DNA of 47,802 bases from a virus, in the IMG/VR virus record IMGVR_UViG_3300031834_000009, positions 1 through 47,802 of that record. The stretch is one strand, 5' to 3'. The first letter of the stretch is position 1. Every line of letters starts with the position of its first letter. The notes beneath the pieces are model-generated. The model saw only the letters and a list, made by a program, of their open reading frames with translations, was not told the DNA's origin and did no database searches. Of the stretch, positions 2,530-39,825 are shown in pieces. Position numbers and translations under genes: made by a program.

Positions 2530-2850
2530 ATGGTTGGTTATCTGATGAAGTACGCGTGTAAAAATTGTGGAATGCACACCACGGTATGCTTCCCGCCAGG
2601 CGAAACATGCCCATTAACGGGCCCGATATGGAGTGGACTTGAACTTGAATATGTACGCTGCTTCCATTGTGGGTGTAAAGAGTTTACCAAGTTGGAAGCA
2701 GTGCGGGAGAAGAAACTTCCGCTGAATCCTCCGGCTTGCGAGGTGACTAGTAGGATTCTGGCGCAACGGCGGGCCGTGGATAGTCGAATGCGCCTCGAGA
2801 TTTTGCAGGCACTTAAGGTGATCGTACAGGCGCTATTGCACGAGAAATGA
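2530..2850 (+). CDS. Zinc-ribbon protein (106 aa)
   Basis: Two cysteine pairs, CKNC near the N-terminus and CFHCGC about 30 residues later, give a typical four-cysteine zinc ribbon, followed by a basic helical C-terminal half. The chosen ATG has AGGAGATAGTAAG upstream; an in-frame ATG five codons later is possible. Such ribbons bind nucleic acid or protein. It is the last protein gene before the structured-RNA block. Confidence 0.65.
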   Translation: MVGYLMKYACKNCGMHTTVCFPPGETCPLTGPIWSGLELEYVRCFHCGCKEFTKLEAVREKKLPLNPPACEVTSRILAQRRAVDSRMRLEILQALKVIVQALLHEK

Positions 2851-2993
2851 GGATATAGGCCTCGATCCCGGACACCCCGCTGGCCGCCATGAGCCGTCAG
2901 CGGTAACCGGTTGTATAAGAGTTCCGTGTTCACAACCTCGAGGGTGATGCGATAACGGGATTCTGGGGTTATGCTCACCAAATCAACGAGTGG
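2851..2993 (+). ncRNA. Structured non-coding leader upstream of the tmRNA
   Basis: No convincing frame exists here, but successive hairpins do. CCGCTG 2877-2882 pairs with CAGCGG 2898-2903. GGTTGT 2909-2914 pairs with ACAACC 2932-2937. GGTGA 2943-2947 pairs with TCACC 2975-2979 around an inner ATAAC 2952-2956 / GTTAT 2968-2972 helix. It runs straight into the tRNA-like element at 2994. It matches no RNA family I know. It may be a separate small RNA or a precursor leader processed from the upstream transcript. Confidence 0.4.
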
Positions 2994-3048
2994 TACCGCG
3001 GGCGTAGGAATGTGCGGGACGCCTGGGCTTCGAGTGCCCGCCGCGGTA
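2994..3048 (+). other. Two-armed tRNA-like element (acceptor and T arm, no D arm)
   Basis: An eight-pair terminal helix, TACCGCGG 2994-3001 with CCGCGGTA 3041-3048, encloses a T-arm-like hairpin: stem TGGGC 3024-3028 / GCCCG 3036-3040 with loop TTCGAGT. The 22 nt between the 5' acceptor strand and the T arm fold only as GCGT 3002-3005 / ACGC 3019-3022 with a 13-nt loop. That is too short for D and anticodon arms. The T arm and acceptor are arranged as in a tRNA. It ends 3 nt before the tmRNA, so it could be a processing signal for tRNA-maturing nucleases or a tRNA relic. Confidence 0.4.
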
Positions 3049-3051
3049 TTT

Positions 3052-3356
3052 GGGCCTGAAATGGTTTCGACTGGATAGGGCGTATATTTTCCACGAGCCG
3101 AGGATGATGGTTGGCCTCGTTAATCTATCCATTAAACGCTTAAATGCGAACCCTGTTCGTATGGCGGCCTAGCCGCTAACCTGCTGCTTGGACTCCGATA
3201 AGGGTGGCAGGTTCTCGGATCGGATGCTTTGCCGGCTTTAAGAAACCGGATGGTGGATTCGCCCCCGAAGTACGTCACCCAGGACGCAAACTTGGGATGC
3301 TCGTTAGGGTATATACAAAGTATCACAGGACCAGGGTTCGATTCCCTGCAGGTCCA
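3052..3356 (+). ncRNA. ssrA: Transfer-messenger RNA with predicted tag ANPVRMAA
   Basis: The 5' end GGGCCTG 3052-3058 pairs with CAGGTCC 3349-3355 as a seven-pair acceptor stem, followed by discriminator A3356. The T arm is CAGGG 3332-3336 / CCCTG 3344-3348 with loop TTCGATT. The 5' segment has the GGTTTCGACTGG block typical of one-piece tmRNA. A resume codon GCG at 3146 opens an eight-codon frame, A N P V R M A A, stopping with TAG at 3170-3172; the final AA matches ordinary tmRNA degradation tags. Downstream, AACCTGC 3178-3184 / GCAGGTT 3207-3213 and TCCGAT 3194-3199 / ATCGGA 3219-3224 form an H-type pseudoknot. CCA is not encoded. It would rescue stalled ribosomes and tag proteins. Confidence 0.9.
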
Positions 3357-3365
3357 ATATTCACT

Positions 3366-3404: not shown

Positions 3405-4178
3405 ATGGCAAACGGAAAGAAGAAACAGACAGAGTTGGCAAAGGCACAGGATGCGCCGCTCGCGGTACCAAGTTACATCACCGAAGGTGCGCAGGGCTTC
3501 GAACACCAACAGGCTGGCGACCTGGTGTTTCCTCGGGCTATCCTAATGCAGGGCTTATCGCCTAGGGTGGCGGATAAGGCCGCCGAAGCGGGTGAGATTT
3601 ATAACTCGGTAACCGAGGAATTAATCGCCGCTATCAGTCAGAAGCGCGCTATCGTGCCCGTGATGTTTTGGCACGAGTGGATCGAATGGAGTGCCCGCAT
3701 CGAGGGTGGTGGAATGGTTGCTCGTTCCCAGGACCCCGAGGGCGCCCTGGCGAAGCGTTGCAAGGGTGGCGAGACCAGCATCAATGAGCAAGGCCGTGAG
3801 GTGCCTTCGATTACCGAGTACATGGTATTTCTTGTTCAACCCGTGGATGTGGAAAATCCGCTTGATGCCTCCCAGATGTTTTGTATCTGTTGTGCTCGGA
3901 CCAATTACAAGCATGGACGTAAACTCTTGACGCTGGCACGAATGCGCGGCAACAAGCCCTTATTCGCGGGCGTCTACAACTTCTACGCAGTCGAAGAGCG
4001 CAACAAGGTAGGGCAGCGGTATTACGTGTTTAACTTCACGAATGCCGGCTGGGCGCCCGAAGCGGTGTTTGAGAACTTGAAACTCGAACATGCTCGGTTA
4101 AAGGACACGGTGGTAAGCGCCGCGGCACCGGTCCATGAAGAAGAAGGGTCCACTGTAGAAAGTGAAACCGAAATATAG
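3405..4178 (+). CDS. Putative ssDNA-binding / recombination accessory protein
   Basis: A 257-residue protein with a strong AAGGAGAATTGAT ribosome-binding site. A basic, Lys-rich N-terminus leads into a compact core (FPRAILMQGLSPRV, EIYNSVTEE, IVPVMFWHEWIEW), and it ends in an acidic tail (EEEGSTVESETEI). An acidic C-terminal tail is typical of phage ssDNA-binding proteins such as T7 gp2.5, and similar core patterns occur in phage proteins of suspected ssDNA-binding role. It has no catalytic motif. The place just before the primase-helicase fits replication. The function is inferred, not shown. Confidence 0.5.
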   Translation: MANGKKKQTELAKAQDAPLAVPSYITEGAQGFEHQQAGDLVFPRAILMQGLSPRVADKAAEAGEIYNSVTEELIAAISQKRAIVPVMFWHEWIEWSARIEGGGMVARSQDPEGALAKRCKGGETSINEQGREVPSITEYMVFLVQPVDVENPLDASQMFCICCARTNYKHGRKLLTLARMRGNKPLFAGVYNFYAVEERNKVGQRYYVFNFTNAGWAPEAVFENLKLEHARLKDTVVSAAAPVHEEEGSTVESETEI

Positions 4179-4234: not shown

Positions 4235-4320
4235 AGGCCGGTAGCGCAATAGGCCAAGAGCGGTTGGGGCGCGAGAGTATCGCTAACCAATATGTGCGGG
4301 TTCGAGTCCCGTCCGGCCAC
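4235..4320 (+). tRNA. Atypical tRNA-like gene with an oversized anticodon arm
   Basis: Acceptor GGCCGG 4236-4241 pairs with CCGGCC 4313-4318, followed by A4319. T8/A9 are 4242-4243. The D arm is GCGC 4244-4247 / GAGC 4258-4261 with one mismatch and a GG-containing loop. The T arm is GCGGG / CCCGT with loop TTCGAGT 4301-4307. The anticodon stem GTTGG 4263-4267 / CCAAT 4287-4291 closes a 19-nt segment instead of 7. Inside it GGCG 4268-4271 pairs with CGCT 4281-4284, leaving a 9-nt loop CGAGAGTAT and an AA bulge. No anticodon can be assigned. It may be an intron-bearing or re-purposed tRNA. Confidence 0.5.
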
Positions 4321-7901: not shown

Positions 7902-8342
7902 GTGAAAGTCTATCTTGCTGGCCCATTCTTTACGCAAGGACAGGGTCTCGTTATCCGAAGGCTCGAGGCGATTCTTGCGGATCTTAAGATCGAATGTTTC
8001 TCGCCTAGCCGCGATCAGCCGCAATTTAGGCACGACGCCGCGCCTGAAGAAAAATGCCGACTATCGCGCGAGATTTATGCGGGTAATCTCCAAGCGATCC
8101 GAAATGGCGCTCTCATGTTGGCCTGCATCGACGATTTCGATCCGGGTACCATTTGGGAAATGGGCTATGCGCGAGGGTTATCCGCAGCCTATCGGATCAT
8201 CGCCTTTACCACCCAACATCACGGGCTCAATCTCATGCTGGCGGAATCCTGCGATGGATTTTTGAGTGGCTACGGCCAAATAGAGCAATACTTCAGGGGT
8301 AATCTAGGAATAGCACAAGCTTGGCGAGGAGCGCTGATATGA
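7902..8342 (+). CDS. Nucleoside 2-deoxyribosyltransferase-like enzyme
   Basis: A 146-residue protein starting at GTG after TAGGAGATCGTAA. It opens with the family signature YLAGPFF (residues 4-10) and carries DPGTIWEMGYARG at about 80-92, where E86 matches the nucleophilic glutamate that attacks C1' of the deoxyribose. These enzymes swap or hydrolyse the base of deoxynucleosides or deoxynucleotides. The next gene overlaps by ATGA. In this cluster it could salvage bases, remove a nucleotide from the host pool, or help install an unusual one. Confidence 0.85.
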   Translation: MKVYLAGPFFTQGQGLVIRRLEAILADLKIECFSPSRDQPQFRHDAAPEEKCRLSREIYAGNLQAIRNGALMLACIDDFDPGTIWEMGYARGLSAAYRIIAFTTQHHGLNLMLAESCDGFLSGYGQIEQYFRGNLGIAQAWRGALI

Positions 8343-8686
8343 AGGATCAATTTGAGGATATGTTCGCGCGGCAGGAAGCTTTTTGGCGCGCTGATAGTCC
8401 ACGTTATGCGGTGCAGGATCCTATCCAGGTACATAACACTCTGTGCCTCGCCATCATCCGAGAGGTAACTGAGGTACTGGATTGCAAGAGTTGGAAATTG
8501 CATCGTAATAAATTAGAAAAATCGCGCGAGGCGCTGCTGGAAGAATTGATTGATGTTTATAAGTACTGGCTTTGTCTCGTGGTCCACCACGGATTCGCTA
8601 GATGTGAAGTCATTGGCATGTTTCATCATAAATCCGACATTGTTGAAAATCGTGCTAATAAGGAGATTACCAATGCCTCGCGTTGA
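8339..8686 (+). CDS. MazG/dimeric-dUTPase-like all-alpha NTP pyrophosphatase
   Basis: A 115-residue helical protein with two metal-binding acidic pairs, E42-xx-E45 and E69-xx-D72 (REVTEVLD and LLEELIDVYKYW), the hallmark of the all-alpha NTP pyrophosphatase superfamily including dimeric dUTPases and MazG. The start overlaps the previous stop as ATGA. An upstream in-frame TTG at 8321 is less likely. It would hydrolyse a (d)NTP to the monophosphate; dUTP to dUMP would feed the ThyX encoded next. The substrate is inferred from context. Confidence 0.75.
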   Translation: MKDQFEDMFARQEAFWRADSPRYAVQDPIQVHNTLCLAIIREVTEVLDCKSWKLHRNKLEKSREALLEELIDVYKYWLCLVVHHGFARCEVIGMFHHKSDIVENRANKEITNASR

Positions 8687-9587
8687 ATCCAATCAGCTAC
8701 ATCAAGTGTTTACCAATCCTATGCAGTCTTTTCCGGGCGAGTTGCCTCGCACCACTTTTAGGAATATGGAAGATTCGATTCAGGTAAAACTGATGAGTTC
8801 TTTCTACCCAAGTCAAGCCATGAACGAGATGGTACAGGCTACGCACGCGGCTTTTGTACCGAAGCCCGGATCGCTCGATCCCCGCACGCGCGCCACTATC
8901 GAGGGTCGGGGCATGTGGATGCTTCAGGAGATTCCACAATATGTATTTAAGATTACAGGTGTATCTCGCATCTTCACGCATCAATTGGTGCGCCAACGCA
9001 TTGGGGTTACCTTCATGCAGCAGTGTACAGGTGATACGGACTTTCGACATGCAGACATCATTGTGCCCGGATGTATTGCCAATGATCTGGATCAGTATGA
9101 AGCCTTTGAGACTTGTTGCCTGGAAGCTAAGATGGCTTATGTATTGTTACTCGATACCGGTATTCCTGTACAATCCGCACGTTATCTGCTGCCCATGGGC
9201 ATCAGTACTTACATTTACATGCAGGCTTCCCTGGCTGCCGTCCTGGCGCTTTATCGAAAGCGCTGTTGTATGATGAGTCAAACCTGGGAAATGGTACTTT
9301 TTGCAAGGCGCCTGAAAGCGGAAATACTAACCTTCCACCCAACCATGGCACAGATGTTTGAGGAGCCCTGCGCCACCGGCAAGTGCTGGTTTCATGGTGC
9401 CAAGAATGAGGGCATCTGGACACCACTCTGGCAGCCGGATGCGCTCCATGATACGTACCCTTGGGTTACAACTGACCTTATTTATTCAGGCACCAATGAG
9501 GAAATCTCATCGCCCCGCCCAACAGCAATCCGATTACCTCGTACCTATGAGGGCCGCCAGTTACAGGCGCAGGATGTGCAACTATGA
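8673..9587 (+). CDS. thyX: ThyX-like flavin-dependent thymidylate synthase with divergent signature
   Basis: The ATG at 8673 follows AAGGAGATTACC and gives 304 residues. The ThyX context SRIFTHQLVR is clear at residues 98-107, and the C-terminal half shows family features (SARYLLPMG, RKRCCMMSQTWEMVLFARRL). The classical RHRxxSxNxxSxR motif reads R107-Q-R, with V112, F114, Q117 and T119 at the S, N, S and R positions. Most signature side chains are therefore replaced. ThyX normally makes dTMP from dUMP with FAD and methylenetetrahydrofolate. The changes could mean altered chemistry, such as hydroxymethylation, or another substrate. Confidence 0.75.
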   Translation: MPRVESNQLHQVFTNPMQSFPGELPRTTFRNMEDSIQVKLMSSFYPSQAMNEMVQATHAAFVPKPGSLDPRTRATIEGRGMWMLQEIPQYVFKITGVSRIFTHQLVRQRIGVTFMQQCTGDTDFRHADIIVPGCIANDLDQYEAFETCCLEAKMAYVLLLDTGIPVQSARYLLPMGISTYIYMQASLAAVLALYRKRCCMMSQTWEMVLFARRLKAEILTFHPTMAQMFEEPCATGKCWFHGAKNEGIWTPLWQPDALHDTYPWVTTDLIYSGTNEEISSPRPTAIRLPRTYEGRQLQAQDVQL

Positions 9588-39347: not shown

Positions 39348-39734
39348 ATGCAGGATAGTACCCGTCAAAAGCGTGAAGAGGCGCGAGCTCGTGAACGTGC
39401 GGCGCACCAGGCGCGGATTGAAAAAGCACGGTATATCCCCACCCTCAAGGATCGTGCCCACAATTTTGAGTTTCGCCTCCATGAGGAACGGCTCATGTTG
39501 CGCCTTTCACGCCAGCAACTTGTCATCGCCGAGGCACAATTCGCCCGCCTTCAGACTCTGATCCCTCGCCTTCGAACCGTGATCCCGGAGCGGGAAAAGT
39601 ATATTGCTTCCCTCACGGCTTCCTGCCTTACCCTACAGCCACAACTGGAGCGGGAGGTGCATATCAGAAAACTGCAGGCCAATATCCGACGCCTTCAGCG
39701 GCAAATCGCCAATGAGGAACGGAAGAACGCATAA
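39348..39734 (+). CDS. Coiled-coil protein (128 aa)
   Basis: Almost entirely charged helix from REEARARERAAHQARIEKAR to the C-terminal KLQANIRRLQRQIANEERKNA, with heptad-like leucines. No catalytic motif or membrane segment. Ribosome-binding site ACAGGAGACAGCC. Likely an early protein that works by binding another protein; the partner is unknown. Confidence 0.65.
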   Translation: MQDSTRQKREEARARERAAHQARIEKARYIPTLKDRAHNFEFRLHEERLMLRLSRQQLVIAEAQFARLQTLIPRLRTVIPEREKYIASLTASCLTLQPQLEREVHIRKLQANIRRLQRQIANEERKNA

Positions 39735-39740
39735 GCCGAA

Positions 39741-39758
39741 ACCCGCCTTGCGGCGGGT
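39741..39758 (+). other. Intercistronic hairpin, related to 40066-40083
   Basis: ACCCGCC 39741-39747 / GGCGGGT 39752-39758 with a TTGC loop. The preceding TAAGCCGAA is identical to that before the hairpin at 40066, so the two are copies. A second stem of GGTCGGTT and AACTGACC follows at about 39757-39774. Confidence 0.6.
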
Positions 39759-39825
39759 CGGTTGGAACTGACCACCCAGCCCTGATGATGGCAGGTCAAG
39801 GCAACGAGAGACAGGAGACAGAACG

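Follow-up and report, generated by a model that had tools for sequence, protein, structure and literature searches.

Tailed phages are known to carry genes for tmRNA (ssrA), which were present in 402 of 18,146 phage genomes in one survey (PMC9004378), and the reason for their carriage is unclear. The locus described here raises that question in a form open to comparison, since the tag that it encodes can be set beside the tags of a bacterial lineage: to which degradation signal does the phage tag correspond, and what would become of the proteins that receive it? The locus lies in a 47.8-kb linear virus record of a tailed phage, all 47,802 nucleotides of which were analyzed and are called the window. 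Its genes encode an HK97-type capsid protein, portal, terminase, tape measure, family A DNA polymerase, primase-helicase, ThyX-like thymidylate synthase and DNA methyltransferase. We favor, at a probability of about three in four, the reading that the RNA acts in ordinary trans-translation and that its tag corresponds to the degron of a planctomycete host.

The preliminary description had read a one-piece tmRNA at this site and had named a covariance-model search as the means of checking it. That search matches the Rfam model RF00023 to positions 3052-3359 (plus strand) at 93 bits, against a gathering cutoff of 47, with E 5e-35 for the window and model positions 1-374 covered; a chance match is thereby excluded. 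When the stems were paired base by base, the gene boundaries, acceptor stem, T arm, GCG resume codon, ANPVRMAA tag and downstream pseudoknot all proved to be as first described (Table 1). ARAGORN does not report the gene at 3052-3356 in the window. The program also misses five of eight other phage tmRNAs, which were picked up by their PK1 motif in viral contigs and confirmed with Rfam, and its silence therefore carries little weight. A two-piece, permuted tmRNA was considered and rejected: RF04321 reaches only 21.1 bits, against 47, at 2989-3172, and the upstream CCGCGGT has no complementarity to the acceptor strand GGGCCTG.

Table 1. Features of the tmRNA gene and its flanks, in window coordinates
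Feature	Position	Strand	Evidence or remark
ORF, 106 aa, no Pfam match, upstream of the tmRNA	2530..2850	+	Missing, along with the tmRNA, from relative IMGVR_UViG_3300028840_005170
One-piece tmRNA (ssrA) gene, mature RNA without CCA	3052..3356	+	RF00023, full model 1-374; stems verified
Acceptor stem, 5' strand GGGCCTG	3052..3058	+	7/7 pairs with 3349-3355 (CAGGTCC); G3-U70 alanine identity pair
Helix 2, 5' strand segments	3071..3098	+	H2a-d, 18/18 pairs in four segments; partner 3299-3328
Pseudoknot PK1, upstream of the tag	3099..3134	+	3099-3103/3115-3119, 5/5; 3105-3110/3129-3134, 6/6
Resume codon and tag frame ANPVRMAA, stop TAG	3146..3172	+	Sequence; frame placed as in RF00023 alignment
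Helix 5, hairpin GCGGC/GCCGC enclosing the last tag codons and the stop	3164..3176	+	5/5 pairs
Pseudoknot PK2	3180..3224	+	3180-3187/3204-3211, 8/8; 3194-3199/3219-3224, 6/6; stem 1 pairs 7/8 in the near-twin contig
T arm, 3' acceptor strand and discriminator A	3332..3356	+	T-stem 5/5, acceptor 7/7
Downstream gene, Pam3 gp34-like (PF23977)	3405..4178	+	Marks the syntenic site without tmRNA in IMGVR_UViG_3300028840_005170

The RNA has the features common to bacterial ssrA of family RF00023: a tRNA-like domain with G3-U70 (here with the T loop TTCGATT), helix 2, PK1, the resume codon GCG, a tag ending in Ala-Ala, a stop codon inside helix 5, and PK2. The tag frame, GCG AAC CCT GTT CGT ATG GCG GCC TAG, combines an alanine resume codon with a hydrophobic end (GCG GCC TAG) and specifies eight residues. 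The RNA differs from the bacterial family in its length of 308 nt, its shorter 3' pseudoknot region, the lack of an encoded CCA (discriminator A3356 is followed by ATATT) and its failure to be called by ARAGORN. By either boundary the gene measures about 305-308 nt, and planctomycete tmRNAs are longer, at roughly 350 nt. The region after PK2 is reduced; the short stretch at about 3225-3300 folds no better than shuffled sequence (z 0.05), and PK1 and PK2 are clear where a typical tmRNA has four pseudoknots. Judged by its intact parts, this is a functional-looking phage ssrA gene.

It is another case of a kind of phage gene already known. Complete ssrA genes in tailed phages occur likewise in mycobacteriophage Bxz1 and its relatives, Bacillus phage G and methylophage Melnitz. 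The tags of Bxz1-like phage tmRNAs are long. The Melnitz tmRNA is two-piece (PMC9004378), whereas that of the window is one-piece and bears an eight-residue tag of planctomycete type.

To see where this tag ending occurs, we searched 84,980 bacterial and archaeal species for RMAA directly before a stop codon and behind the PK1 motif at the spacing of a tag. The motif is also that of E. coli, so that a match was open to tmRNAs of many other phyla, provided that they ended in RMAA; RMAA-tagged tmRNAs that lack such an E. coli-like motif would be missed. Twenty-five of the 26 matches are genuine tmRNAs, and 24 of these lie in records titled Planctomycetota, Phycisphaerae, Isosphaeraceae, Singulisphaera, Verrucomicrobia, Kiritimatiellae or Lentisphaerae. 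The remaining one (L030) comes from the record of an uncultured rumen bacterium, and its RNA is nearly that of Kiritimatiellae. The twenty-sixth match, in an Idiomarina record, is not a tmRNA and has none around it. Among the scanned genomes, and for tmRNAs with this PK1 motif, RMAA is thus found only in the Planctomycetota-Verrucomicrobiota group, L030 apart. The argument of the preliminary description, in which the basic middle of the tag sets it apart, gives way before this distribution: the ending is native to the group. Nor is a length of eight residues unusual, since tmRNA tags run from two residues to dozens, with a mode of 10 (PMC11915505); in E. coli the five residues YALAA suffice for ClpXP (PMC7652416). 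No paper with a title or abstract on such tags came up in a direct literature search for RMAA together with tmRNA.

Within the planctomycetes the correspondence extends further into the tag. The final six residues, PVRMAA, are identical in planctomycetes G064, G039, G101 and G005. In the order to which G064 belongs, the tags of all six genomes (ADAPVRMAA twice, AEAPVRMAA, GNNMPVRMAA, ANEPVRLAA and AENNAPLRMAA) end P[VL]R[ML]AA, and half of them end exactly in APVRMAA. Most tags from an even draw of 59 planctomycete genomes end in LAA, a smaller but appreciable share have Met in third-last position, and a few have RMAA; the tag caller left a few genomes uncalled, and some tags were read by hand. 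Two tags in this draw, ADAPVRMAA and AEAPVRMAA, have PVRMAA as their ending, and both come from that order. In a draw of 29 Verrucomicrobiota, RMAA was seen in the seed genome only. It was also observed that planctomycete tags vary around the third-last residue (LAA, AMAA, QMAA, SMAA, RMAA and also MVA; planctomycete draw, L084, L104, L105, L108), and that the Verrucomicrobiota tags, mostly LAA, are less varied.

The capsid gene gives a separate indication of the host. At E 1e-20 or better, the capsid protein has matches in 18 of 392 Planctomycetota genomes (best 385 bits, full length) and in 7 of 398 Pseudomonadota genomes (best 214 bits), in a comparison that covered these two phyla only. 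In a tree of the best matches the window protein falls in a supported clade (99/96) with planctomycete proteins, and homologs of other phage structural genes adjoin two of the planctomycete capsid genes. By these comparisons the window capsid groups with apparent planctomycete prophages. Two host-related results weigh against the favored reading. No CRISPR-spacer-like match to window positions 1-40000 was found in the 392 Planctomycetota genomes, and the tmRNA neighborhoods of the tag-sharing order range from 31 to 55% G+C, mostly below the 52% of the phage. A host from the tag-sharing planctomycete order is plausible, and the phage tag is probably of the usual kind in its likely host, not an exotic one.

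Because RMAA was found, among the scanned tmRNAs with this PK1 motif, only in the Planctomycetota-Verrucomicrobiota group (L030 apart) and the last six residues recur exactly in one order, the comparison suggests that the tag is read by the normal machinery of the host, and that the tag endings of phage tmRNAs could be used as host markers. For this virus the tag supplies a host prediction in a phylum with few known phages. The interest of the locus lies in this match to a host lineage and in the testable idea that the tags of phage tmRNAs follow the degrons of their hosts.

In the reading that we favor, the gene would be expressed during infection and the RNA, bearing the G3-U70 pair, would be loaded with alanine by the alanyl-tRNA synthetase of the host together with SmpB. 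The latter would be supplied by the host and would guide the RNA into stalled ribosomes; a Pfam scan of 30 phage proteins found no SmpB. The RNA would then free ribosomes that had stopped on cleaved mRNAs or on mRNAs lacking a stop codon, and rescue during infection is a fair reading of what the gene may do. Translation would resume at GCG and terminate at TAG, so that the broken protein would gain the sequence (A)-ANPVRMAA. Since the tag ends in PVRMAA, the C-terminal degron of a planctomycete order, the tagged proteins would be handed to the protease that normally reads host tags (ClpXP by analogy) and would not escape it.

RMAA tags occur in five other IMG/VR phage tmRNAs: L020 (AEKPQIRMAA) was recovered by the PK1-motif scan of viral contigs, and the RMAA pattern found L049 (AAPARMAA), L050 (GESQFRMAA), L051 (GEARFRMAA) and L052 (AKAPLRMAA). 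Like that of the window these are one-piece tmRNAs, but their RNAs are longer. No homologs of the window's genes were detected in the examined parts of these five phages. Locus L049 lies on a 235-kb phage contig, IMGVR_UViG_3300031997_000001, which carries several weak tRNA-like matches near the tmRNA and shares its IMG sample number with the window's near-twin described below. Long tags were seen as well among the phage tmRNAs. Three of them (L015, L016 and L017; L016 at 8237-8696) have a tag frame of about 46 codons ending in AVA, as read by eye from the Rfam alignment, and were missed by ARAGORN; another, L013, has a 35-residue tag ending in AVAA.

The strongest competing explanation is that the RNA serves mainly to rescue ribosomes and that its tag is selectively neutral, the planctomycete match showing only where the gene came from. 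Rescue by itself needs no particular degron, and the tag could have been inherited with a copy of a host ssrA; the absence of an encoded CCA is shared with many planctomycete tmRNAs. The backbone of the RNA, unlike that of a recent copy, is closer to other phage tmRNAs than to those of the tag-sharing order. The chromosomal tmRNAs of that order (G064, G039 and G005) have in common with the phage RNA the ending PVRMAA, but they differ in their acceptor stem, GGGGGCG, and in their PK1, and their backbone does not group with it, a result that also weighs against the favored reading. In a tmRNA tree from which the tag columns were left out (173-180 usable columns, few supported branches), the window RNA is nearest, at low supports, to L017 and L016, which have long tags, and to L020. 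Holding the window together with the tag-sharing order is not rejected at the 5% level (p-AU 0.068), nor is holding it together with four long-tag phage tmRNAs (p-AU 0.35). The RMAA-tagged phage tmRNAs are, moreover, divergent from each other, which also argues against a neutral, inherited tag. We place this explanation somewhat short of even odds.

Because the backbone lies nearer to the long-tag phage tmRNAs while the tag end is that of a planctomycete order, phage tmRNAs might constitute separate lineages in which the tag end is adapted, host by host, to the local degron. The proposal is tentative, and we hold it to be rather doubtful. Were it true, the tag would be under selection, and it would matter to the phage that tagged proteins are destroyed along the host's own pathway.

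It is also conceivable that the phage RNA competes with or inhibits the host tmRNA and so spares phage proteins from tagging, as has been proposed for a tag-less tmRNA form of phage DS6A (PMC11915505, PMC4131195); a role in countering host tmRNA has been suggested for phage Lacusarx (PMC5648845). A pure inhibitor would need neither the full tag frame, resume context, helix 5 and stop codon that are kept here nor a tag that resembles that of the presumed host, and we regard such a role as improbable.

The near relatives of the phage bear on whether the gene is a decayed or passenger copy without function, for example one left by imprecise excision of a prophage. The clade recovered from IMG/VR consists of one near-twin and one relative without the gene; among 50,697 phage records no nucleotide relative of the window was found. 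In the near-twin contig, IMGVR_UViG_3300031997_000029, the tmRNA differs from that of the window by six substitutions, which are confined to 3178-3205, within stem 1 of PK2 or next to it; four of them fall inside that stem, and the tag is unchanged. The relative, IMGVR_UViG_3300028840_005170, has a polymerase 54% identical to that of the window phage and no tmRNA anywhere in its record, the flanking genes lying there about 70 bp apart. Since the near-twin keeps the gene and this relative is without it at the syntenic site, ssrA is a variable element within this phage group. Such absence would suit a decayed copy, as would the negative ARAGORN result and the shortened 3' pseudoknot region, but the defining helices and the tag frame are all intact, and in the near-twin the changes touch a single short stretch, most of whose pairs survive, with the tag and the rest of the RNA identical. 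Decay is, in our estimation, quite unlikely.

The proposal in the preliminary description that tagged proteins may go to other proteases or adaptors because the tag is short and basic draws on the lack of an E. coli SspB-type middle and on the replacement of Ala-Leu by Arg-Met before the last two alanines, but it finds no support and is very improbable, since PVRMAA is a chromosomal tag ending in a planctomycete order, RMAA would be the normal signal in planctomycetes and their relatives, and a length of eight is within the known range (PMC11915505).

Three further RNA-like elements were observed in the window. A tRNA-like mini-element at 2994-3048, ending 3 nt before the tmRNA, combines an acceptor-like stem of 8 bp (TACCGCGG/CCGCGGTA) with a T arm, TGGGC-TTCGAGT-GCCCG, and only 22 nt lie between them. 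Energy minimization predicts a different fold for it, and the element may be the remains of a tRNA or may serve as a processing signal. A tRNA-like gene at 4235-4320 scores 33.7 bits against the Rfam tRNA model and is rejected by ARAGORN; its anticodon loop, GGCGCGAGAGTATCGCTAA, is of about 19 nt and contains a small inner hairpin. Finally, a Type II hammerhead ribozyme lies at 39734-39800, above the Rfam cutoff and with a strong fold (z -2.97), and another, also above the cutoff, is present in the tmRNA-less relative (L004, 8165-8245).
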